In this document: positions 4,994-44,407 of the stretch, one piece after another
Numbering within the stretch: position 1 is the first letter of the stretch
Layout: each line of letters begins with the position of its first letter
Assembly: GCA_937928215.1 (NCBI GenBank)
Contig: CALFWL010000040.1
Span: forward strand, 1-49,378
DNA: 49,378 nt
From: an uncultured Pirellulaceae bacterium
GTDB taxonomy: Bacteria; Planctomycetota; Planctomycetia; Pirellulales; Pirellulaceae
Reading direction: 5' to 3'
Notes under the pieces: model-generated
What the model was told of the DNA's origin: nothing
Databases searched by the model: none
The model's input: the letters and a program-made list of their open reading frames with translations, nothing else
Program-made: the position numbers and the translations under genes

Positions 4994-5875
4994 ATGTCCG
5001 AATCCGCCAAGCCTCAAGTTCGATCCGGTACGATCGGGAACTGGCTTTATCAGCTCGACCGAATTCTACGCGGCGAAGCGACTCGCCCAACCGATATTCA
5101 ACAGGCCGATATCAAGATTCCAGTCCTTGGAATCACGCTGGTCGTCGTTGTGTTGGCGGTGATCTATGGCTTTTGCATGGGTGTTTTCGGGATTGCGACA
5201 GGAATCGAATCCGCACAATTGCAGAAAGCACTGCTGCAGACGTTCGCGTCGATGAGCAAAGTGCCGCTGCTGTTCTTCCTGACTTTAATCGTCACATTTC
5301 CATCGCTGTACGTGTTCAACGCACTCGTGGGATCGCAGTTGAAGATTTTGCCTGTGCTGAAACTGCTGATTGCATCGCTGGCCGTCAATCTTTCGGTGTT
5401 GGCGTCGATGGGACCGATCCTCGCATTCTTTTCGCTCAGTACGCCCAACTATTCTTTTATCGTTTTGTTGAACGTCGTTGTGTTCACTGCCGCAGGAACC
5501 CTCGGTCTGACGTTTTTAATTCAAACACTCAATCGGCTGACCGTTTCCCAGCATGGGCCGTCGGCACCGGTTGCCGCGATTCCAGTGGGACCGGTCGAAC
5601 CGAATGACGCAGAATCCGAAGGCTCCAGACTGGCCGTGATCAAACCTGCTGTAGAGCCAGGGCCGCTGGATCGATTGCAAGGAATTGCGATGGGATCGCA
5701 TGTGAAGAAGGTGTTTGGCTGTTGGATCGTTGTCTTCGGCTTGGTCGGCGCACAGATGGGTTGGGTGCTCAGACCGTTTATTGGCTCACCCAATTTGCCT
5801 TTTCAATGGTTCCGCCCTCGTAGTTCCAACTTTTTCGAAGCCGTCGGGAACACGATCTACAACCTGTTCTCTTGA
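4994..5875 (+). CDS. Multi-pass membrane protein, member A of a paralogous pair
   Basis: A 293-residue protein with a hydrophilic N-terminus of about 45 residues, then five or six hydrophobic segments (for example around VLGITLVVVVLAVIYGF, VPLLFFLTLIVTFPSLYVF, FIVLLNVVVFTAAGTLG and GCWIVVFGLVGAQMGWVL). A soluble loop of about 55 residues interrupts the segments before the last one. The C-terminus holds a striking motif VLRPFIGSPN followed by PFQWFRPRSSNFFEA. The next gene, nine bases downstream, is a paralogue with the same KVPLL..F motif and VLRPFIGNPN end. The two are surely co-transcribed and may form a heteromeric membrane complex. I do not recognise the family well enough to assign a function. 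Confidence 0.8.
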   Translation: MSESAKPQVRSGTIGNWLYQLDRILRGEATRPTDIQQADIKIPVLGITLVVVVLAVIYGFCMGVFGIATGIESAQLQKALLQTFASMSKVPLLFFLTLIVTFPSLYVFNALVGSQLKILPVLKLLIASLAVNLSVLASMGPILAFFSLSTPNYSFIVLLNVVVFTAAGTLGLTFLIQTLNRLTVSQHGPSAPVAAIPVGPVEPNDAESEGSRLAVIKPAVEPGPLDRLQGIAMGSHVKKVFGCWIVVFGLVGAQMGWVLRPFIGSPNLPFQWFRPRSSNFFEAVGNTIYNLFS

Positions 5876-5884
5876 TCTATTGCG

Positions 5885-6664
5885 ATGTCAAAAGAGCCAA
5901 CCATTCCGTCGCGAATCGATTTTATGTTGCAAGGCTGGAAGAAAATGGCTCGAGGGTTTGATACCGTCGACCACATTCTCCGCCGGCAGTCGGTCAAACG
6001 TAACCTCTCCTCCAACCGCGACGGACGTGTGTCCCTGCGGACGACGGTGTTCATCGTCATGCTGCTGGGGCCAATCTACGGAATTGCCATGGGTTGCTAT
6101 GCTTGGGTGGCAGGTGAAAGAACGTTGGTCGAACAGATCCCGCAAATGGTTTACTCCGGAACTAAAGTTCCACTGCTGATTTTTTTTACCGTGTTGATCT
6201 CACTGCCCAGTTTTTTTGTCATCAACACGCTGCTGGGATTGCGAGACGATTTTCGTGAGTCGCTGGCGGCAATTATCTCGGCTCAAGCAGGTATGATCGT
6301 GATTCTCACGTCTCTGTTTCCGTTGACTTTGTTCGCCTACGTTTCCACGTCTCATCTGGAGTTCAACTACCCGTTGGCGATTCTCATTAACGCGGGGATG
6401 TTTGGCCTAGCGAGCGTTTCAGCGCAAGTGTTGCTGCGAGGCTACTACTCGCCATTGATCGCCAAAGACACTCGTCATCGTTGGATGGTCCGCAGTTGGA
6501 TTTTCGTTTACGCCTTTGTTGGAATCCAAGCGAGCTACGTGTTGCGTCCATTCATCGGCAATCCGAACACACCGACTTCGTTCTTTCGGAAGGATTCATT
6601 CGAGAACGCTTACGTCAGAGTTCTTCAATTGGCCAGCGAAGTGATCCAAGGATTTTTTTCTTAG
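5885..6664 (+). CDS. Multi-pass membrane protein, member B of a paralogous pair
   Basis: A 259-residue protein beginning nine bases after member A. It keeps the same architecture: a basic cytoplasmic N-terminus, then about six membrane segments (TTVFIVMLLGPIYGIAMG, VPLLIFFTVLISLPSFFVI, SAQAGMIVILTSLFPLTLFA, PLAILINAGMFGLASVSA and the segment around WIFVYAFVGIQASYVL) and the motif VLRPFIGNPNTPTSFFRKDS near the end. It lacks the long soluble loop present in member A. Tight spacing says operon and probable joint function. Function unknown; no transporter signature seen. Confidence 0.8.
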   Translation: MSKEPTIPSRIDFMLQGWKKMARGFDTVDHILRRQSVKRNLSSNRDGRVSLRTTVFIVMLLGPIYGIAMGCYAWVAGERTLVEQIPQMVYSGTKVPLLIFFTVLISLPSFFVINTLLGLRDDFRESLAAIISAQAGMIVILTSLFPLTLFAYVSTSHLEFNYPLAILINAGMFGLASVSAQVLLRGYYSPLIAKDTRHRWMVRSWIFVYAFVGIQASYVLRPFIGNPNTPTSFFRKDSFENAYVRVLQLASEVIQGFFS

Positions 6665-9562: not shown

Positions 9563-9741
9563 ACGATTAGCTCCGCGAGTTCATGACCAAGCTTCGATCC
9601 AAAACCGAAGCCCTGCAACAACTGCTCGAAAGGAGTGACGCCGCCAAAATAGAAAAGACCAAGACCCTGAAGGAAATCACCAAGCTGGAAAAACAGCAGA
9701 AGGAGCTGGAACACTACGACCGCGATGATCCAGTTGGCTGA
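9532..9741 (+). pseudogene. C-terminal fragment of a PglX-like (BREX) DNA methyltransferase
   Basis: A frame from 9532 reads VTFSVVLND, a TAG at 9568-9570, then LREFMTKLRSKTEALQQLLE and a Lys/Glu-rich coiled coil ending in KELEHYDRDDPVG before a TGA. From memory this matches the tail of planctomycete PglX-type adenine methyltransferases, where the coiled coil runs into a conserved YDRDVLYPLA stretch; here the match breaks exactly after YDRD. The catalytic methyltransferase part is absent. It is joined directly to the integrase remnant on its left and the ImmA/IrrE remnant on its right, which shows that deletions have stitched fragments together. It could alternatively be the tail of a related type IIG or type I methylase. 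Confidence 0.5.
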
Positions 9742-10168
9742 GCAATTTCATCGGTTGGAACAGGTCTGTGGTAACCCGAGGCCCTGCGCACTTTCGTCGG
9801 CGGAAGGATGCTCAGAGACGTTCCGCTACTCGGATGCGGAAAGACTTGCGCACCAGTTGCGGAAGTCTTACTCGCTAGGTGAGCGGCCTGCATGCTCGCT
9901 TCTATCCGTACTGGAAGAAGTGTGTCGGGTGAAAGTATTCCACCTGCCGTTCGAACGCTCGGGAACCGCTGCGTGTACGCTCAGCGATCGGTTCGGGGCA
10001 GCAATTTTGCTGAATTCAAACAATATCCGATGGCGGCGAAATTTTGACCTAGCTCATGAGTTGTTTCATCTTCTGACTTGGAACATATTCCGCCAGGGGG
10101 ATAGCTTAAAAGAGTCGTCCGAACAGGAAGAGAAGTTTGCCAATCCATTCCTTTCGCAGTCTGTTTGA
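9725..10168 (+). pseudogene. ImmA/IrrE-family metallopeptidase, truncated at both ends
   Basis: A 147-codon frame with the zinc motif HELFH (residues 111-115) inside FDLAHELFHLLTW, preceded by GAAILLNSNNIRWRRN, the hallmark of ImmA/IrrE peptidases that cut repressors and antitoxins. In related proteins the segment EQFHRLEQVCG follows an N-terminal HTH domain; here that domain is missing and the frame begins right at this point. At the other end EQEEKFAN, which should continue into the last helices of the domain, instead switches to unrelated PFLSQSV and stops. The HExxH core is intact, so residual expression cannot be excluded, but I regard it as a broken toxin-antitoxin or defence-associated gene. 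Confidence 0.7.
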
Positions 10169-12817: not shown

Positions 12818-15800
12818 CTAAAAGTCTCGCAACGAGAATTTTACAAGATCGCTATCGCTTGTCGAAAGTCTCGTTGTGTCCATCAGTTCAAATCGCGACA
12901 AGACGCGTTTGAGCAGGTTCTCGGGTGACGATTGATTCCTGAGAGGTAGCTCAGGCACTGCATTTGCATCGTCCTCTATGTCTGTCGACTTGTGCAGCAA
13001 GGTGTAAAGTTCACCGGGGATGAGTAGCGCTTTGGCCGACAAGTTTTTCATCAGCTTCTTCGTCTGACGGATCGTTTTACCAAAAGCGGTTGGCTGATTT
13101 TCGGAAGAGCCTGTCATGACTTCTCCCGATTGGATCACAAAACAACACTCGCCGATTGGAATTCCCGAACCGTCAATCACGTCGGCGGTCAGTTGATCCA
13201 ACGAAGCCAGCAGGTCGTCCAGCTGTACGAACGAAACCAGCATCGATTCGTTATTGCACTCTTCGATGGTGCATCGTTTTTGTGCCACCGGAAATTTCTG
13301 CTGGAGTTGTTTCCAATAGTGCCTGACCTGCACGTCACCGACTCGATCAAGCAGGGAGTCGGCTTGTGTGTGCCGGATGGCCAGCAGGTGCAAATTGGAG
13401 ACGGCCACCAGTTGTTCGGTCTGTCGGATGTCGTCGGGGAAAAGCTTCTTGAACAGTGGGTGTCGTTGAGCCATTGCTGCGGTCATCGCATCAGTTCGAG
13501 TGTCGTTGCGAGCAAGCCGAACTAGGACCTCGACGTTCGATTGATTATCGACTTTGACACACGCAGGACCACTGCGGAGTTCGGGCAATGCTTGATGCGA
13601 AGCACCGCCAATCGCAAACACGGCTCGACTTTCAGACGCGTTCTGGGAGACATCCAGTTCGCCGGTCTTTTCCAACTGAGGCCCCGTGATTACATATTGA
13701 CCTTCGACCAGATCGACTCCCACATCAACGTGCTGCCCTTTCAGCAGACGATTCTGAGCCAACACGTGCGGGGCATGGTACGGGCCGCCGATGCACCAAG
13801 TTTTCAGTTGGATGTTGCGAATGTCTGGGTGAACACTGAAAATCATTTCAACGGTCTCGGCGAAATCGGTCTCGAATTCGAGGTTACACACTTTGCAGTG
13901 AGAGTGTGATTCGATCTGATCGATTGAGCGAATGTTGTCGGCGGCGATTTTGCAGACCGGGCAGATGATATCCCAGGAAAGATTCAATAATCCCGCCTCG
14001 ATGCTCGACCAGCAAACCTGAAGTGATTGTTCGTTCGAGCAGTTCAGTTTCGCCGCAAGCGTTAGAGGGCGAAGGCGAGCGGCGACGGGGTCAGCCAATT
14101 GTTGGATAAGATTGCCGAACCGCTCGGCCAGCACAATGTCTCCGAGTGCCCTCGCCAGCACGTCGACTCGTGCAGTGAGCCGTCTCTTCTGGCGGCGGCT
14201 GATTTTTGGCGGACCTTCGAATGGAACATCACAACCGAAGCGGCAGCTTTGATCATTGGCCAATCGCTCCAATCGCGGGTAGACCTTTTCAAGCGATCGG
14301 CGAATCAAAATATTGAACTGGATCGGCGCGAATAGCTTTCCAAACAGACCTCGTGGCTTAACCTGAAACCGGTGGAGCAAACGCGTTTTGTGGTCGGCCA
14401 GTGGATGCAGTTCGACGGTGCTGGTGACCCATTCGAAAGGGCCCAATTCGAATTCTCGCAGGATGCTCATTTCTCGTTCGCAGATCCATTGGAACGGATG
14501 CTCACGCCATTGAAAGCTCAGTCCGTTGAGTTTCGCTTCTGCAAAGATCTTCAAATGTTTTCCGGAATGGTCGTAACGGAACTCGGGGGCCGGAAGGCCA
14601 ATGGCGCGATTGAATCGATCGGTGTCGGACACCAATGGCCAAAGCTCTTTGGGGGTCGCGTCGAGCGTCCATTGAAAATCGTAGCGTTTCACGCTGGCGT
14701 CCGATGTATTGGGCGTCGCGGGATAGATTCTGATCGCCGCTGGTTGATCGTTCAGGATCAGTTGCACGTCGGCCAGCATTTCATCCGCATTCTGGTATCG
14801 CAGGTTCGGCTCTTTCTCCAACGCTTTCATGACGACGCTGTTGATCGCGTGGCTGATGTCCTTTCGCAAGAAGGTCAGCGGCATCGGCCGTTGGATTCGA
14901 TGCATCTCCGCCATCTCGGCTTGGCTTTTGGAATTAAAGGGTGGACGGCCGGCCAGCAAATGGTAGAGCGTGACTCCGGTGGAATAAACATCCGCCCGAG
15001 CGTCGATGGTGTCACTTCCCGAGTGTTGTTCCGGAGCCATGTAGGTCGGCGTGCCGAGCGTGGCATGTTGGCGGGTCATGGCGAGCGATTGGCTCTGATC
15101 GATATGCCTTGCCAGCCCGAAGTCAGTCAGTTTTGCGATAACGAAATCACCAAGATCTCCCGGCTGATCGATAGTATTGTTCGAGTTCTGAAAGGTGGCG
15201 ATCACATTGGCAGGTTTCACATCCCGGTGAATGACTCCTTTGGAGTGCATGGCCGAAAGTGCGGTAAGCAAGTCGGCGACGATGCGAAGAATCTGCTTGG
15301 CAGGAAGCTGCCTCAGCTGGGGTACGATCCTGTCAAGCGAAAACCCTTCGACGAACTCGCTGGCAATGAAAAAAATGCCGTGAAAGTCGCCGAACTCCAG
15401 ATGCCGAGTCACATTCTCGCATTTGATTTCTGCATGGAGTCTGGATTCTTTTTCAAAACGCCTGATCGCTTTGCTGTTGGAAACAAATTCGGGGCGAATC
15501 ATTTTCAAGGCAATTTGCGGATACCCACCGGCGGGGCCGTCCTTCTGCAAAGGCGTTGCTCGGAAGACGATTCCGGCTCCGCCTTCTCCGAGTTTTTGAA
15601 CGATTGTGTAGTTCGCAAACGTTTGCGGAAGGCGATTGGAGTCGAACCCGTCGTGAGGTTTGGAATCGGCGGGCAAAGCGGCTTCGGCTGAGTGCTCGAC
15701 AAACGACGAGCTTGGCGTCGACTGATGATCGCTTGCCATGTTGTCCGAACCCGAGGGCACTTCATCGGCATCGCCATGCGGCGCCCGATCCTCATCAGCT

Positions 15801-15910
15801 CGGGTTTCTTCGTCAGATGACATGTCTGAAATGCTTGTTCGAGTGAAGTCGGATGAAGTTGATGATGGGGATGAACCCCGGATGATGACCGATGAAGGCG
15901 GCGCAGTCAC
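12818..15910 (-). CDS. Ser/Thr protein kinase fused to DUF5939, zinc-ribbon and degenerate class III cyclase-like domain
   Basis: 1030 residues from a GTG at 15910 (an ATG at 15823 is an alternative; the first ~95 residues are acidic low complexity). Kinase domain about 101-390: GEGGAGIVF loop, Lys136 in ALKM, HRDVKPAN (228-235), DFG (263-265), APE (292-294). Residues ~405-560 match DUF5939, the SRPBCC-like domain of some adenylate cyclases (LWPLVSDTDRFNRAIGLP; VKPRGLFGKL). A zinc ribbon follows with Cys650/653/672/675, then the usual linker (WCIGGPYHAPHVLAQN). Residues ~838-970 align with the cyclase domain that normally ends such proteins, but the metal-binding Asp of the first motif is absent (LLAIRH) and the GDAVMA motif reads NNESMLVSF, so it should be catalytically dead. 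No membrane segment, so cytoplasmic. Kinase activity is expected; the C-terminal half is probably a sensor or scaffold. Confidence 0.88.
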   Translation of the reverse strand: MTAPPSSVIIRGSSPSSTSSDFTRTSISDMSSDEETRADEDRAPHGDADEVPSGSDNMASDHQSTPSSSFVEHSAEAALPADSKPHDGFDSNRLPQTFANYTIVQKLGEGGAGIVFRATPLQKDGPAGGYPQIALKMIRPEFVSNSKAIRRFEKESRLHAEIKCENVTRHLEFGDFHGIFFIASEFVEGFSLDRIVPQLRQLPAKQILRIVADLLTALSAMHSKGVIHRDVKPANVIATFQNSNNTIDQPGDLGDFVIAKLTDFGLARHIDQSQSLAMTRQHATLGTPTYMAPEQHSGSDTIDARADVYSTGVTLYHLLAGRPPFNSKSQAEMAEMHRIQRPMPLTFLRKDISHAINSVVMKALEKEPNLRYQNADEMLADVQLILNDQPAAIRIYPATPNTSDASVKRYDFQWTLDATPKELWPLVSDTDRFNRAIGLPAPEFRYDHSGKHLKIFAEAKLNGLSFQWREHPFQWICEREMSILREFELGPFEWVTSTVELHPLADHKTRLLHRFQVKPRGLFGKLFAPIQFNILIRRSLEKVYPRLERLANDQSCRFGCDVPFEGPPKISRRQKRRLTARVDVLARALGDIVLAERFGNLIQQLADPVAARLRPLTLAAKLNCSNEQSLQVCWSSIEAGLLNLSWDIICPVCKIAADNIRSIDQIESHSHCKVCNLEFETDFAETVEMIFSVHPDIRNIQLKTWCIGGPYHAPHVLAQNRLLKGQHVDVGVDLVEGQYVITGPQLEKTGELDVSQNASESRAVFAIGGASHQALPELRSGPACVKVDNQSNVEVLVRLARNDTRTDAMTAAMAQRHPLFKKLFPDDIRQTEQLVAVSNLHLLAIRHTQADSLLDRVGDVQVRHYWKQLQQKFPVAQKRCTIEECNNESMLVSFVQLDDLLASLDQLTADVIDGSGIPIGECCFVIQSGEVMTGSSENQPTAFGKTIRQTKKLMKNLSAKALLIPGELYTLLHKSTDIEDDANAVPELPLRNQSSPENLLKRVLSRFELMDTTRLSTSDSDLVKFSLRDF

Positions 15911-39861: not shown

Positions 39862-41211
39862 TCACTCGTCGGAGTCATCATTGGAAGCTGCGGCGTCACC
39901 CTCTTCAGGCTGGGCATCTGGATCGGCGTCGTCCGCTTCAGCGGGCTCTTGGTTGGATTCGGCAGGCTCTTGGTCAGATGTTTGTTCCGACTGATTGGAT
40001 TTTGAATTCTTAGATTCACTTGATGCTTGCGCTTCATCCTTGGAATCAGTCGCCGCCGATTTCTCTTCGGACGAAGTTTCCTCAGACTCGGGTTCTCCTG
40101 TTGATTCCTCTTGTGAAGCCGAAGGTTTATCCAGCGGAGGTTCGTTTACGCCAACTTTGTTGGGACGATAGACATGGTCGCGTTTCCGGAGCACTTTGGC
40201 GGAGACGATTTGATCTTTTTTGATGTCTGGAATTTCTTCCTCACGGCGGTTGATCACGACGTGTGTTCGCTGGAGGTTCTCCAGCACGTCCCGGCCTTTG
40301 ATGACGCGACCGAATACGGTATGACGACCATCCAGTTGTTCCGTCCGTTCAAAGGTTAAGAAGAATTGACTGCCGCCCGTGTCCTTTCCTGCATGAGCCA
40401 TTGACAAGCTGCCAGTGAAATGCGGTCGAGCCTCAGGAGAATCGCATTCGCATTCGATTTCATATCCGGGTCCGCCCGTCCCAGTGCCCTCCGGGCAGCC
40501 CGTTTGAGCCATGAAACCTTCGATCACCCGGTGGAACAAAATGTTTTGGTAAAAATCGGCTTCGATCAGGCTGATAAAGTTTCCAACGGTTTCGGGGGCC
40601 TGATTCTCAAAAAGCTCGACGACGATATCGCCTCGATTGGTCGTCAGCGTGACTTGAGGAAGATCGTCAGCTTCCGACTCTCGTTGCCTGATCAATAGCT
40701 CGTCAAAGATTTCTCGAGCGTCAATCGGAATCCGTTGTGACTTTGCAGCGGTTTCGAACCAGATCGGATCAATACCTTGTTCGATCAGGAAGTCGCCCGC
40801 GTCCAAGACTTGTGCATCGTCGCCTTCACCGGCCGCGTTTAGCAAAATGCCCATCAGCGCGCGGGTCGCGGCCACGTCTTTGCCGTCGTTGGAATCAAGC
40901 TGATCCATCGCAGCCTTGCGGATTTTTTTGATCGTCGCATTGGCTTCGTCAACCAGATCGGCGTACTGTCCGCGCAGTGATTCAGGGTCTCCTTCGCCCG
41001 ATTCCAGTTGCTGCTGTACCACATCGAGAGACTGGTCAATGGTTTTCCATTGCTGTTGCAAGTCCGAAAGAGTCTGACCTTGGGGCGCTGATTCCTGAGC
41101 CTTGACGGAGGCGGAGATGGTGAGCGTACACGTCAATGCCAACAAAACGGCAATCGTTCGAAGAGACCGTCCTTGTTTGGGCAAACGCGGAGACAAGCAG
41201 ACAAGCAACAT
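39862..41211 (-). CDS. Exported cyclophilin-type peptidyl-prolyl isomerase with acidic tail
   Basis: 449 residues with a GGAGAA site upstream of the ATG. A signal peptide (TIAVLLALTCTLTISASVKA) is followed by a helical N-terminal region of about 150 residues, then the cyclophilin domain (about 195-345): GDIVVELFENQAPETVGNFI, FHRVIEGFMAQTGCP with the catalytic Arg and the F-M-x-Q of active cyclophilins, and GRVIKGRDVLE. The last ~110 residues are Glu/Ser/Asp-rich low complexity. Expected to speed proline isomerisation of exported proteins. First gene of the trio seen from the left; same strand as the two below and likely co-ordinately expressed. Confidence 0.9.
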   Translation of the reverse strand: MLLVCLSPRLPKQGRSLRTIAVLLALTCTLTISASVKAQESAPQGQTLSDLQQQWKTIDQSLDVVQQQLESGEGDPESLRGQYADLVDEANATIKKIRKAAMDQLDSNDGKDVAATRALMGILLNAAGEGDDAQVLDAGDFLIEQGIDPIWFETAAKSQRIPIDAREIFDELLIRQRESEADDLPQVTLTTNRGDIVVELFENQAPETVGNFISLIEADFYQNILFHRVIEGFMAQTGCPEGTGTGGPGYEIECECDSPEARPHFTGSLSMAHAGKDTGGSQFFLTFERTEQLDGRHTVFGRVIKGRDVLENLQRTHVVINRREEEIPDIKKDQIVSAKVLRKRDHVYRPNKVGVNEPPLDKPSASQEESTGEPESEETSSEEKSAATDSKDEAQASSESKNSKSNQSEQTSDQEPAESNQEPAEADDADPDAQPEEGDAAASNDDSDE

Positions 41212-41333
41212 GAAATTCTCCAGTAGTTACGAAGCAGTCGCACCAGAATCACCATCCAAAATTGGCGATTCCGGGTATCTCAAACGGAATGCGGAAGAGC
41301 ACCTGCGGGTGCTGGCAGGCAAGCCCGAATCTA

Positions 41334-42782
41334 TCAGGGATCGCTGGGAGAAAAAAGACCGCCACCATCAATCGACGGTACGTCTTCGGATGCCGAACGC
41401 GGAGCGAAGAGGTCATCGGAGTTGTCTGAGCCGCCGAGGCCACCCAGCAGGTCTTTCGCGTTTGCCTTGGCCGGTTCGTATTCGTGGTCACGCTTCCAGA
41501 GCACTTCCGCCTTGATGATTCGGACTGGTTCATTTGTTGCGTTCTGACCAACTGGAGGGGGATCTTGAGGATCGATCGCTTTCGTCCCTAGGATCACATC
41601 GAAACCCTCGATGACTCGCCCGAACGCAGTAAATTGTCCGTTCAACTGGGGAATAGCCTGGTGCGTAATGACAAACTGCGAGCCTTCGGTTTCTGGACCG
41701 GTGTTCGCCATTCCGAGTGTCCCCGAAAAGTAATGACGAATTTGTTCGCGGTCAAACTCGCTGGAGATCGTGTATCCTGGCCCGCCGGTTCCGTCGCCAT
41801 TCGGGCAGCCGGTGTGAATGTATTCACCCGGTTTGACGTAGTGAAAGGTCAAATCGTTGTAGAATTTCTTCTGGACCAAGCTGATGAAGTTGGCGACAGT
41901 GTTCGGGGCATAGTCCTCATAAAGTGCGACCACAAAATCGCCCGCAGTCGTTTCAAATTTTACTTTCGGCAAGTTGTCATTGTTCTTTTCGAGCCTGCGG
42001 ATCATCAGCTCACGTTGCCATTTTTCTTTCATGTCGTCAACGACTTGTCGAATCTGACCGAGATCGCCTTCCGGATTCGCTTCCGAGATCCGATCGAGCA
42101 TTAAACTGGCTCGATCGAAATCGTCCATCGCGAAGCTGGCTCGAAACCCCTTGGAAAGCACCACGCCGTTTTCTTCAGCGCCCGCATCGAGCAGCGTATC
42201 CACGATTTCCAACGCGGACCTAGGGTTGAACCGAGAATCGGGCAACGAGGGCTCGATCATTTCGCTCAACGTCTGAAAGACGAATTGGGTCGCGGCAGGA
42301 TCTTTCCCAGGGTCGGCCTTGAAGGCTTCAATGGCAGCCTTGGGCAAGTTGGCGCGGAGCTGAGCGGTTTGAGCCACCAGAAAGTCAATCTTCTCCGTTT
42401 GTTTCTTTATCAGTTCTGGAAAACCGAGAGGCATCGAGCTGTACAAACGGTTGACCTCCGCTTCGTTCTGGCGGATTCGATCGAGCATCATCCGGAAGAG
42501 CTTTCCGGGTGGCACGCTCTGGTCGTCTGCGTCCGCACCTTCGTCGCCGGAGTTGCGAGTCGTGCTGCCGGACCCGGTGGCGTCCGAGTCACCTGCATCT
42601 ACACGGGGAGTCAATTGCAACTGAGATACTGCTGACGAGCTTGGAATCAGGTAGCAGCCGATCAGGAGCACGCCAAGCAATCGCAACAAGGAGCGATTGA
42701 CCAACAATTCAGCTGACTTCGAAATGAATGACACGTGAAAATGGAAACTCATAACTAATGGGCTCATGAAACTCAGAGACAT
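41334..42782 (-). CDS. Exported cyclophilin-like protein with altered active site
   Basis: About 482 residues from the ATG at 42782; other ATGs 5 and 10 codons later are possible. A hydrophobic signal segment (LLRLLGVLLIGCYLIPSSS) is followed by a helical region (~90-260) and then the cyclophilin domain: GDFVVALYEDYAPNTVANFI, then FHYVKPGEYIHTGCP where the catalytic Arg of the FHR motif is Tyr and the F-M-x-Q is replaced by Y-I-x-T. FGRVIEGFDVILG closes the domain. It shares TGCPxGxGTGGPGY with its neighbour downstream. Probably a binding protein or chaperone rather than an efficient isomerase. Confidence 0.87.
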   Translation of the reverse strand: MSLSFMSPLVMSFHFHVSFISKSAELLVNRSLLRLLGVLLIGCYLIPSSSAVSQLQLTPRVDAGDSDATGSGSTTRNSGDEGADADDQSVPPGKLFRMMLDRIRQNEAEVNRLYSSMPLGFPELIKKQTEKIDFLVAQTAQLRANLPKAAIEAFKADPGKDPAATQFVFQTLSEMIEPSLPDSRFNPRSALEIVDTLLDAGAEENGVVLSKGFRASFAMDDFDRASLMLDRISEANPEGDLGQIRQVVDDMKEKWQRELMIRRLEKNNDNLPKVKFETTAGDFVVALYEDYAPNTVANFISLVQKKFYNDLTFHYVKPGEYIHTGCPNGDGTGGPGYTISSEFDREQIRHYFSGTLGMANTGPETEGSQFVITHQAIPQLNGQFTAFGRVIEGFDVILGTKAIDPQDPPPVGQNATNEPVRIIKAEVLWKRDHEYEPAKANAKDLLGGLGGSDNSDDLFAPRSASEDVPSIDGGGLFSPSDP

Positions 42783-42932
42783 GATTTTTTGTTTTACTTG
42801 GTTGCAGGATAGCTTAGGAGCGTACGACAAATAAGTTTTGACTTTCGCCGAGCGAAAGATGCATGACACGTTGCTTTGGCTACGCGAAAGATGACTTTCA
42901 TCAACAGCTTGGACCTTAAACGCGATTGCGGC

Positions 42933-44267
42933 TCAGTCGGCAGGTGTTTTGGTATCGGTTGCTGGCGCGGCAGATGTTTCGATCGTCGAACCGAATTGTA
43001 CCGGCTGATAATCGTGGTCTCGTTTGCGAATCACTTTTGCGGATTGGATCATTGATGGAACCGTCCCCTCGACGGGCTCTTCTTTACCTTGGTCGTCGTC
43101 CCGGAAATTGACCGTCAGGTCGGCCATCACCGACAGCCCTTCAATCACTCGACCGAACACCGTATGTTTTTCGTTAAGGAACGGCTGTGGTGTCAGCGAA
43201 AGAAAAAACTGACCGCTGGCTGTATTCGGAGCATTCTGGTTGGCCATGCTCAACGAGCCACGAAAATGCTTACGAGCAACGGGTTTGTCATTTTCGTCAT
43301 TGATCGTGTAACGCAGGCGTCTAGGCAGAAGTCTGGCGACGCCATCGACCTGAGCAACGCCGAATCCGCCAGCCTGAGCAACAAATTCACGCTTTACCTT
43401 GTGAAAAATTACGCCGTTGTAGAAACCTTGCTCGACTAGGTAAACAAAGTTGGCGACCGTTTCCGGGGCTTCGTTTTCAAACAACTCAAGCACGATACGA
43501 CCTTCGGTGGTGAGTAACTCAACGCGTGGCAGATCGTTCGCTTTCGCTTCCGCTTCCCGAAGCTGCCTCTCACGCTTGAACTGCGAGATCAATTCATCGA
43601 TCGACTCAAACAGATAGGCTTCCGTCTTGGTCAAGGATTCAAGTTGATCGGGGTGCTTATCGAAGTACGACTTCGCCGACTCGAATTCGTTGTCCAGCAG
43701 TTGCACCCTGGCCATGAAGGTCTCGGTACGAGGCGTCGGACGGATCGAGTTGGCTCGTTTGAATACATCAAGTCCCACGCGATAGCGTTCTTCATTGATT
43801 TCGATCAAGCCGCTTCGGAAAGCCAGATCGATCACTTCATCGGAAGGGCGTTCCTGTCGCCGGAAAAGCTCCATCGCTGCCGCTCGCAGGGATTCGACAT
43901 GTACCTTTCCGGAGTCAACCGCCTGCTGCCATGATTCGCGATGTACCTCCGATTGCTCGACCGATTCGTTGAAGAATCGGACACTCGAAGCCTGAAGTTC
44001 TTTCAGGGAGGATCGAAGTTCTTCGGTCGCCTGATTATACTGACGCTGCACCTCTTCCAACGAAGATTCCTTCAGCGAGGGAGCGGTATTCGTTTTCGCG
44101 CTTACGTCCTGAGCTTGGGCTGCAACAGAAAATCCTAAACAGCCACATCCGATCACCAACGCCGCTAGGAATCGTACTGATTGCCCAATCGCTTTTGGCC
44201 GGAGCCTCAATACCAGCGCGGGTTGGTGTCTTGTGGTGAGGGTCAATTTGTTGAGCGACGCAAACAT
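42933..44267 (-). CDS. Exported cyclophilin-like protein, Arg-less active site
   Basis: 444 residues from the ATG at 44267. Signal segment FLAALVIGCGCLGFSVAAQA, then a helical region with coiled-coil character (LEEVQRQYNQATEELRSSLK) and tetratricopeptide-like stretches (~90-200), and the cyclophilin domain: GRIVLELFENEAPETVANFV, FHKVKREFVAQAGGFG (Lys in place of the catalytic Arg; the F and Q are kept), FRGSLSMANQNAPNTASGQF and FGRVIEGLSVMADL. The C-terminus ends with a short Thr/Ala-rich tail. Divergent from rsmD. Third member of the tandem trio. Confidence 0.87.
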   Translation of the reverse strand: MFASLNKLTLTTRHQPALVLRLRPKAIGQSVRFLAALVIGCGCLGFSVAAQAQDVSAKTNTAPSLKESSLEEVQRQYNQATEELRSSLKELQASSVRFFNESVEQSEVHRESWQQAVDSGKVHVESLRAAAMELFRRQERPSDEVIDLAFRSGLIEINEERYRVGLDVFKRANSIRPTPRTETFMARVQLLDNEFESAKSYFDKHPDQLESLTKTEAYLFESIDELISQFKRERQLREAEAKANDLPRVELLTTEGRIVLELFENEAPETVANFVYLVEQGFYNGVIFHKVKREFVAQAGGFGVAQVDGVARLLPRRLRYTINDENDKPVARKHFRGSLSMANQNAPNTASGQFFLSLTPQPFLNEKHTVFGRVIEGLSVMADLTVNFRDDDQGKEEPVEGTVPSMIQSAKVIRKRDHDYQPVQFGSTIETSAAPATDTKTPAD

Positions 44268-44407
44268 ATGACTGTCAAATGGATTTGGTTGACCGATTCG
44301 ATCGAAATTGGCTGAGACGAGCAATCGGACTCGTCCTCAAAAAGTAATAATATAGCCGCTGTTGAAGTTGTGGACCGAAAACTTCCAGCCAATCGAGGAA
44401 ACCACTG

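Follow-up and report, generated by a model that had tools for sequence, protein, structure and literature searches.

Why should a protein kinase carry a nucleotide cyclase domain that has lost its active site? This question is raised by the gene at positions 12818–15910 of a DNA stretch from an uncultured Pirellulaceae bacterium (GCA_937928215.1, contig CALFWL010000040.1, 1–49,378; the whole stretch of 49,378 nucleotides is called the window below). Over this interval the plus strand is interrupted by stops when read in frame, and the open reading frame (ORF) lies on the minus strand; an earlier interpretation of the DNA from its letters (the sequence-only reading) had named no strand. On balance we favour, by a modest degree, the view that the product, here the window protein, is a cytosolic Ser/Thr kinase under the control of a sensor and pseudocyclase module that derives from a DUF5939 class III cyclase. 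The combination suggests an established signalling switch rewired to serve another output. The main new result is a family survey comparing kinase-fused with stand-alone proteins.

The kinase domain (PF00069, residues 101–378) was detected with an E value of 3e-41 and 141.9 bits against a Pfam cut-off of 31.7. All motifs quoted in the sequence-only reading are present, with HRDVKPAN at residues 228–235, DFGLAR at 263–268 and MAPEQ at 291–295. Nine catalytic and structural kinase residues are intact in all 25 fused proteins of alignment A1, the sole set in which they were counted. Judged by these motifs, the kinase looks like an active enzyme of the RD type. It resembles PknB/Stk1-type kinases in matching NF033483 over residues 101–396 (E 6e-66), but the protein has neither a listed Pfam PASTA match nor a membrane helix, and with 223.6 bits against an equivalog cut-off of 450 membership of the PASTA/Stk1 family was rejected. 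Similarly, the kinase/cyclase fusion family of TOMM systems (TIGR03903) is matched over residues 132–379, but the 104.7 bits are far under the cut-off of 705.75 and the highest-scoring stretch falls on the kinase; this assignment was discarded as well. Because no hydrophobic stretch resembling a membrane helix was found in the window protein (best 19-residue mean hydropathy 1.31), it is probably cytosolic.

The tail had been described from about residue 405 to 970 as DUF5939, zinc ribbon and cyclase. The DUF5939 match at residues 587–736 (PF19363; 59 bits, gathering score 22.5), the ribbon and the cyclase fold were recovered, but residues ~405–575 belong to a different domain, predicted to be an SRPBCC helix-grip fold lying N-terminal to the DUF5939 match. 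The two segments LWPLVSDTDRFNRAIGLP and WCIGGPYHAPHVLAQN are located at residues 423–440 and 705–720. Tails were aligned for 57 of the 71 ORFs with a match to the DUF5939 region (alignment A2, which omits L021, L100, L102, L112 and any ORF in which SRPBCC was not matched), and the four zinc-ribbon cysteines 650, 653, 672 and 675 (alignment positions 255, 258, 277 and 280 plus 395) are invariant in 57 of 57. A model of residues 396–1009 calculated from these tails, stand-alone proteins included, reached a mean predicted local distance difference test score (pLDDT) of 87.3 and a predicted template modelling score (pTM) of 0.80; adding 395 to the model number gives the protein number.

Foldseek comparison of the model with the Protein Data Bank (PDB) gave, among the matches listed, SRPBCC and cyclase chains. 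On the SRPBCC side these were the Bet v 1 family, PYL receptors and the aromatase/cyclases ZhuI and TcmN, and a small hydrophobic ligand, as suggested for the pocket in the sequence-only reading, is plausible for a fold of this kind. PF10604 was matched in 3 of 28 members and was not listed for the window protein. On the cyclase side class III cyclases were returned, with Ma1120 at E 2e-6 and a target-normalised template modelling score of 0.75. Superposition with VIA-align placed Ma1120 chains on model residues 439–441 to 609–611 (protein ~835–1005) with Z scores of 14.9–16.2 over 154–157 residues; the best structure match, 5d0h (Z 16.2, 2.8 Å over 154 residues), bears out the cyclase fold expected by the sequence-only reading. 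A profile of 29 kinase-first proteins, with no stand-alone protein included, also matched the mycobacterial cyclase Ma1120 (E 2e-17). Since Ma1120 was matched both by this fused-only profile and by the predicted structure, residues ~835–1005 are assigned by profile and model to the class III cyclase fold.

Among 28 aligned members Pfam detected DUF5939 in 28, a kinase in 25 and PF00211 in 10 at E ≤ 0.01; the last include the stand-alone L057, L058 and perhaps L059, which leaves 7 or 8 of the 25 fused proteins. When seven proteins were scanned singly, PF00211 exceeded Pfam's own cut-off in the fused L015, L042 and L047. For the window protein PF00069 and PF19363 matched as anticipated, but PF00211 was not listed at E ≤ 10, although beyond E values of about 0.1 most hits are removed by the filters of HMMER. 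The tail is nevertheless homologous over its whole length to stand-alone Planctomycetota DUF5939 cyclases (PF19363 + PF00211), some of which (L057–L060) show the same order of SRPBCC, DUF5939/ribbon, beta-domain, linker and cyclase, and a motif related to FxxLFP occupies the equivalent position in both groups, fused and stand-alone. These relatives have no kinase match in the ORF and retain the active-site letters, as described below; the homology supports the proposal of a regulatory half derived from a cyclase protein.

The active site was surveyed in six columns, which we take from class III cyclase biochemistry to be the first metal Asp, the base-reading Lys, the second metal Asp, the base-reading Asp, the catalytic Asn and the catalytic Arg. 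The 71 ORFs gave a table of 68 rows (L021 and L102, at contig ends, and half of L112 had no cyclase match and were dropped), in which the letters depend on the alignment and the cyclase region of L100 is gappy. Stand-alone denotes an ORF without a kinase match; a kinase is possible at L104 and L132, which run off the contig N-terminally, and at L060 and L112, each split between two ORFs. The complete set of six letters was found in 35 of 36 stand-alone DUF5939 cyclases, the exception being L107 with R and E at two sites, and in none of 32 fused proteins (30 kinase-first, 2 kinase-last). Further fused loci numbered 23, of which 22 reach into the cyclase domain (the stretch of L188 has no cyclase match); none of the 22 has the set, giving 0/54 fused proteins overall. 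Loss of the catalytic set is therefore well supported, by aligned letters, as general among the fused proteins examined.

The window protein reads R-E-E-T-R-K where its stand-alone relatives carry D-K-D-D-N-R. The two metal Asp, the Asn and the Arg expected of an enzyme are replaced by R, E, R and K, and both metal sites are lost at the motifs that the sequence-only reading had singled out, LLAIRH (842–847) and NNESMLVSF (886–894). A protein with two enzyme activities, kinase and cyclase, was rejected on the ground of this loss. Counted over the 30 kinase-first proteins, the first metal Asp occurs once, the base-reading Lys 24 times, the second metal Asp 12 times, the base-reading Asp 21 times, the Asn once and the Arg five times; the first metal Asp occurs in 5 of the 22 further proteins. 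An Asp is thus aligned at the first place in six of 54 (L098, L168, L176, L177, L185 and L187), none of which has the second, and the 12 kinase-first proteins with the second all lack the first. The expectation that the metal residues are always missing holds for the pair, which by alignment is complete in 0/54, but a single Asp survives in some proteins, and the statement that the first metal Asp is always lost was abandoned as too strong.

These letters bear on whether cyclic nucleotide could still be made through substituted residues, for example Glu for Asp. The second metal place is Glu in 14 of the 30 kinase-first proteins and an aligned Asp in 12, as such a mechanism might use, but with the metal pair never complete, the Asn and Arg mostly gone and an Arg at the first site of the window protein, we give residual catalysis almost no credence. 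Alternatively, the pseudocyclase could be a receptor that binds ATP, GTP, cAMP or another nucleotide without turnover and so tunes the kinase. The frequent retention of the base-reading Lys (24/30) and of the Asp in DYFG (21/30) in other fused clades, where the catalytic letters are rarer (1, 1 and 5 of 30 for the first metal Asp, the Asn and the Arg), is in line with this, but the kept letters may serve folding. Since Glu and Thr occupy the base-reading places of the window protein, and Glu with Thr or Ser those of its two nearest relatives L012 and L013, a nucleotide receptor is unlikely here.

Class III cyclases act as dimers with shared sites, and the dead domain might regulate a separately encoded true cyclase as an inactive heterodimer partner. 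The window genome contains two other PF00211 matches that could supply such a cyclase, but no other DUF5939 match was found in this genome (about 92% complete), and in the window protein residues are missing from each half of the shared site. With both halves damaged it could at best inhibit, and we regard this role as very improbable.

Conservation along the tail differs sharply between the two groups. Mean pairwise identity of the cyclase domain is 0.245 among 29 fused proteins and 0.490 among 26 stand-alone proteins, whereas that of the SRPBCC domain is 0.422 and 0.269; the linker is conserved in both (0.432 fused, 0.505 stand-alone). Among large domains the cyclase is accordingly conserved best in stand-alone proteins and least in fused ones, whose best-conserved large tail domain is SRPBCC. 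Wherever a divergence bin contains both groups (five bins), cyclase identity is lower among the fused proteins, for example 0.180 versus 0.480 at 30–35% identity over the remainder of the tail. A functionless vestige, with the SRPBCC/DUF5939 part regulating alone, would fit the finding that the cyclase is the fastest-changing domain of the fused proteins, most so in the clade of the window protein. Yet 32 of the 33 fused ORFs in the first set show a cyclase match (the exception, L021, is cut off by its contig end), the fold is predicted to be kept, and the ratio of nonsynonymous to synonymous substitution rates (dN/dS) of the dead domain is 0.11 for L017/L044 (dS 0.62) and 0.08 for L018/L052 (dS 1.72, near saturation). 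In these two close fused pairs the dead domain is under purifying selection; the cyclase dS of a fifth fused pair, L018/L048, is saturated. We consider it unlikely that the domain is a vestige.

In a tail tree calculated without the cyclase columns, 29 kinase-first rows fall on one side of a branch with bootstrap and Shimodaira–Hasegawa approximate likelihood-ratio (SH-aLRT) values of 100/100, and two kinase-last rows on a separate branch, also 100/100, with two label changes in total; the tree is unrooted and two stand-alone rows on long branches are of unsure placement. Because a complete site would hardly arise from a dead one, we infer that the cyclase was ancestral and its active site was later lost. 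The kinase-last proteins (L097:6040–9081 and L099:5449–8493) have the reverse order of SRPBCC, DUF5939 and cyclase fold followed by the kinase, and their catalytic set is incomplete too. They are two paralogues of one genome, a single origin with the kinase-first proteins was not rejected (approximately unbiased (AU) test, p 0.44), and an independent fusion is not established; among the matches listed, no further kinase-last tails were found in 12 genomes of the same class as L097/L099. Since both domain orders lack the catalytic set, attachment of the kinase and loss of catalysis may be causally linked.

The interpretation we favour, a kinase controlled by a module of cyclase origin, may work as follows. 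The SRPBCC/DUF5939/zinc-ribbon module would sense a small hydrophobic ligand or a cellular state, and the change would be relayed via the conserved FxxLFP linker to the pseudocyclase, acting as a dimer-forming switch. The altered dimer would join the kinase domains, permit trans-autophosphorylation as expected for an RD kinase and so set kinase activity; likely outputs in relatives would be a phosphothreonine-reading FHA-EAL protein acting on cyclic di-GMP (c-di-GMP) or a sigma-70-type factor. More tentatively, and as a possibility we would not yet rely on, the cyclase dimer with its DUF5939 input could be a portable switch: once a kinase had been attached, catalysis would have been dropped and the conformational relay kept, so that the same sensor would now drive phosphorylation in place of cyclic nucleotide, with many members being pseudokinase-kinase-pseudocyclase triple devices and one clade feeding an FHA-EAL c-di-GMP enzyme.

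The triple devices are suggested by an N-terminal extension of ~300 residues in 15 of 31 kinase-first ORFs from the first set (L014, L015, L016, L019, L043, L045, L046, L047, L049, L050, L051, L053, L054, L094 and L098; 1188–1591 residues in these relatives), which is absent from the window protein. The profile of the extension matches solved Ser/Thr kinases (StkP, E 2e-16) and aligns with the window kinase. Because neither HRD nor DFG was found at the matching places in any of the 15 rows, the extension looks like a pseudokinase.

The genes next to the fused loci were compared over stretches whose flanks were not all equal. In 11 of 33 fused loci a gene of one cluster lies directly downstream on the same strand, with gaps of 0–136 bases between stop-to-stop frames (L042:6954–8075 and homologues at L014, L017, L018, L043, L044, L046, L047, L048, L051 and L052). 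Both of the two scanned contain FHA and EAL domains by Pfam, and by eye what we take to be the EAL motifs of an active enzyme appear to be kept in the genes read. This neighbour suggests phosphothreonine signalling into c-di-GMP. Genes of a second cluster lie within 500 bases on either side in 13 of 33 loci (DUF6666 by Pfam in the one scanned), and genes of a third, 0–2921 bases away on either strand, in 9 of 33; sigma-70 region 2 was detected in two of three scanned and was missing from the third. L012 and L013, the two closest relatives of the window protein, carry second- and third-cluster genes. The FHA-EAL gene has relatives (E ≤ 1e-30) in 16 of the 18 kinase-positive genomes in the order sample, versus 72 of the 278 others (Fisher p 1e-7, uncorrected for kinship; the two samples are assumed to be the same 296 genomes, as size and handles agree).

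Several observations weigh against regulation of the window kinase in this manner. The model of kinase plus tail (pTM 0.59) shows no sure contact between the two. Compared with L012, the window cyclase has a dN of 0.615 against 0.350 for the kinase and a dN/dS of 0.43 (dS 1.42) against 0.175; compared with L013 the ratios are 0.335 and 0.134, at high dS. As the pseudocyclase is the fastest-changing domain there, its role may be weaker in the three-member clade of the window protein. A search of the window for FHA-EAL, DUF6666 or sigma neighbours yielded at best a stray match at E 0.002, and at 22 of 33 fused loci no FHA-EAL gene was found in the stretch, neighbours varying by clade. The genome does possess an FHA-EAL gene (46% identity with the L042 gene), but on another contig and with no kinase, by eye, among the surrounding ORFs of at least 170 residues; its matches to all three clusters are on other contigs. 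FHA-EAL relatives are, moreover, common (88 of 296 genomes).

Among 100 genomes sampled from the family, 10 have a tail relative, the source genome being one of them; the order gave 22 of 296 and the class 48 of 297 (E ≤ 1e-10). DUF5939 was matched in 49 of 392 across the phylum, and the samples overlap. A kinase-fused protein is present in 18 of the 22 from the order, while among the matches G206, G229, G273 and G279 have stand-alone proteins alone. A peptide-pattern scan of genome contigs yielded a single relative. One DUF5939 cyclase with complete active-site letters (L101:5113–9663, 1517 residues) carries ~900 N-terminal residues with no Pfam match at E ≤ 0.1. Two stand-alone cyclase genes, L112 (G436:C2, ~18 kb) and L060:6242–8467, are each in two ORFs; the break in L112 is one in-frame TGA.

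The cyclase domain of animal receptor guanylate cyclases is active. These receptors likewise join kinase and cyclase folds in one chain with one of them dead, but as a mirror image, a dead kinase controlling a live cyclase. A kinase-like domain without catalytic residues is noted for the eukaryotic receptors in a 2005 survey of bacterial kinases (PMC1262709), where Myxococcus xanthus Pkn2 is described as a kinase with a guanylate-cyclase-like domain and a membrane segment. By that description Pkn2 shares an active N-terminal kinase and a C-terminal cyclase-like domain with the window protein, but it is a membrane protein, and its description there names no DUF5939 or SRPBCC (PMC1262709). In the main text of a 2024 survey of planctomycete Ser/Thr kinases the word cyclase is absent (PMC11032199), and the main text of a paper on another cyclase-like family, DUF2652, is without the word kinase (PMC4886424). 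In the open-licence literature searched, no paper naming DUF5939 or "pseudocyclase" was found; as far as that literature goes, most subscription papers lying outside it, the kinase-DUF5939-pseudocyclase architecture is undescribed. The family offers a natural experiment in which a cyclase-type switch was freed of catalysis while input half and linker stayed conserved and the output would have become phosphorylation. DUF5939 gains a context and the pseudocyclase is predicted to control kinase dimerisation or activity. If true, in a phylum whose kinase sets are large, a cyclase-derived sensor is tied to protein phosphorylation, and for some of the relatives c-di-GMP is a likely downstream partner.

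Coordinates of the kinase-pseudocyclase gene and its parts within the window
Feature	Position	Strand	Description or basis
Whole gene	12818..15910	minus	1030 aa, GTG start; kinase-SRPBCC-DUF5939/zinc ribbon-beta-domain-linker-pseudocyclase
N-terminal ~94 residues	15629..15910	minus	no Pfam domain; Ser/Asp/Glu-rich by eye
Ser/Thr kinase domain	14756..15628	minus	Pfam match 101–378; glycine loop, K136, E155, HRD, DFG, APE present
SRPBCC (START/Bet v 1-like) domain, residues ~405–575	14186..14698	minus	predicted structure, Foldseek
DUF5939 (PF19363), residues 587–736	13703..14152	minus	Pfam E 5.5e-16
Zinc ribbon, Cys 650, 653, 672, 675	13886..13963	minus	four-Cys pattern; putative metal binding, from the pattern
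CIGGP motif and beta-domain, residues ~705–802	13505..13798	minus	tail alignment, predicted structure
Linker with F-x-x-L-F-P motif, residues 806–834	13409..13495	minus	precedes cyclase fold
Putative pseudocyclase (class III cyclase fold without catalytic residues), residues 835–975	12986..13408	minus	profile, structure, active-site letters
LLAIRH, residues 842–847, replacing FTD(L/I)	13370..13387	minus	first metal aspartate lost
NNESMLVSF, residues 886–894, replacing GDA(V/I)MAxF	13229..13255	minus	second metal aspartate lost; base-reading Lys just before is Glu
AFGKTIRQTKKL replacing DYFGxTVNxAxRL	13052..13087	minus	base-reading Asp, catalytic Asn, catalytic Arg lost

The adjacent genes, named by eye and both on the plus strand, are sulfatase-like on the downstream side and LpxK-like on the upstream side. 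Elsewhere in the window, two neighbouring membrane proteins of 293 and 259 residues (4994–6664) are apparently paralogous by eye, and a short ORF at 9725–10168, possibly cut short, contains by eye a HELFHLL motif, which we take to be like that of ImmA/IrrE zinc peptidases. On the minus strand at 39862–44324, three tandem genes show motifs of cyclophilin-type peptidyl-prolyl isomerases by eye.

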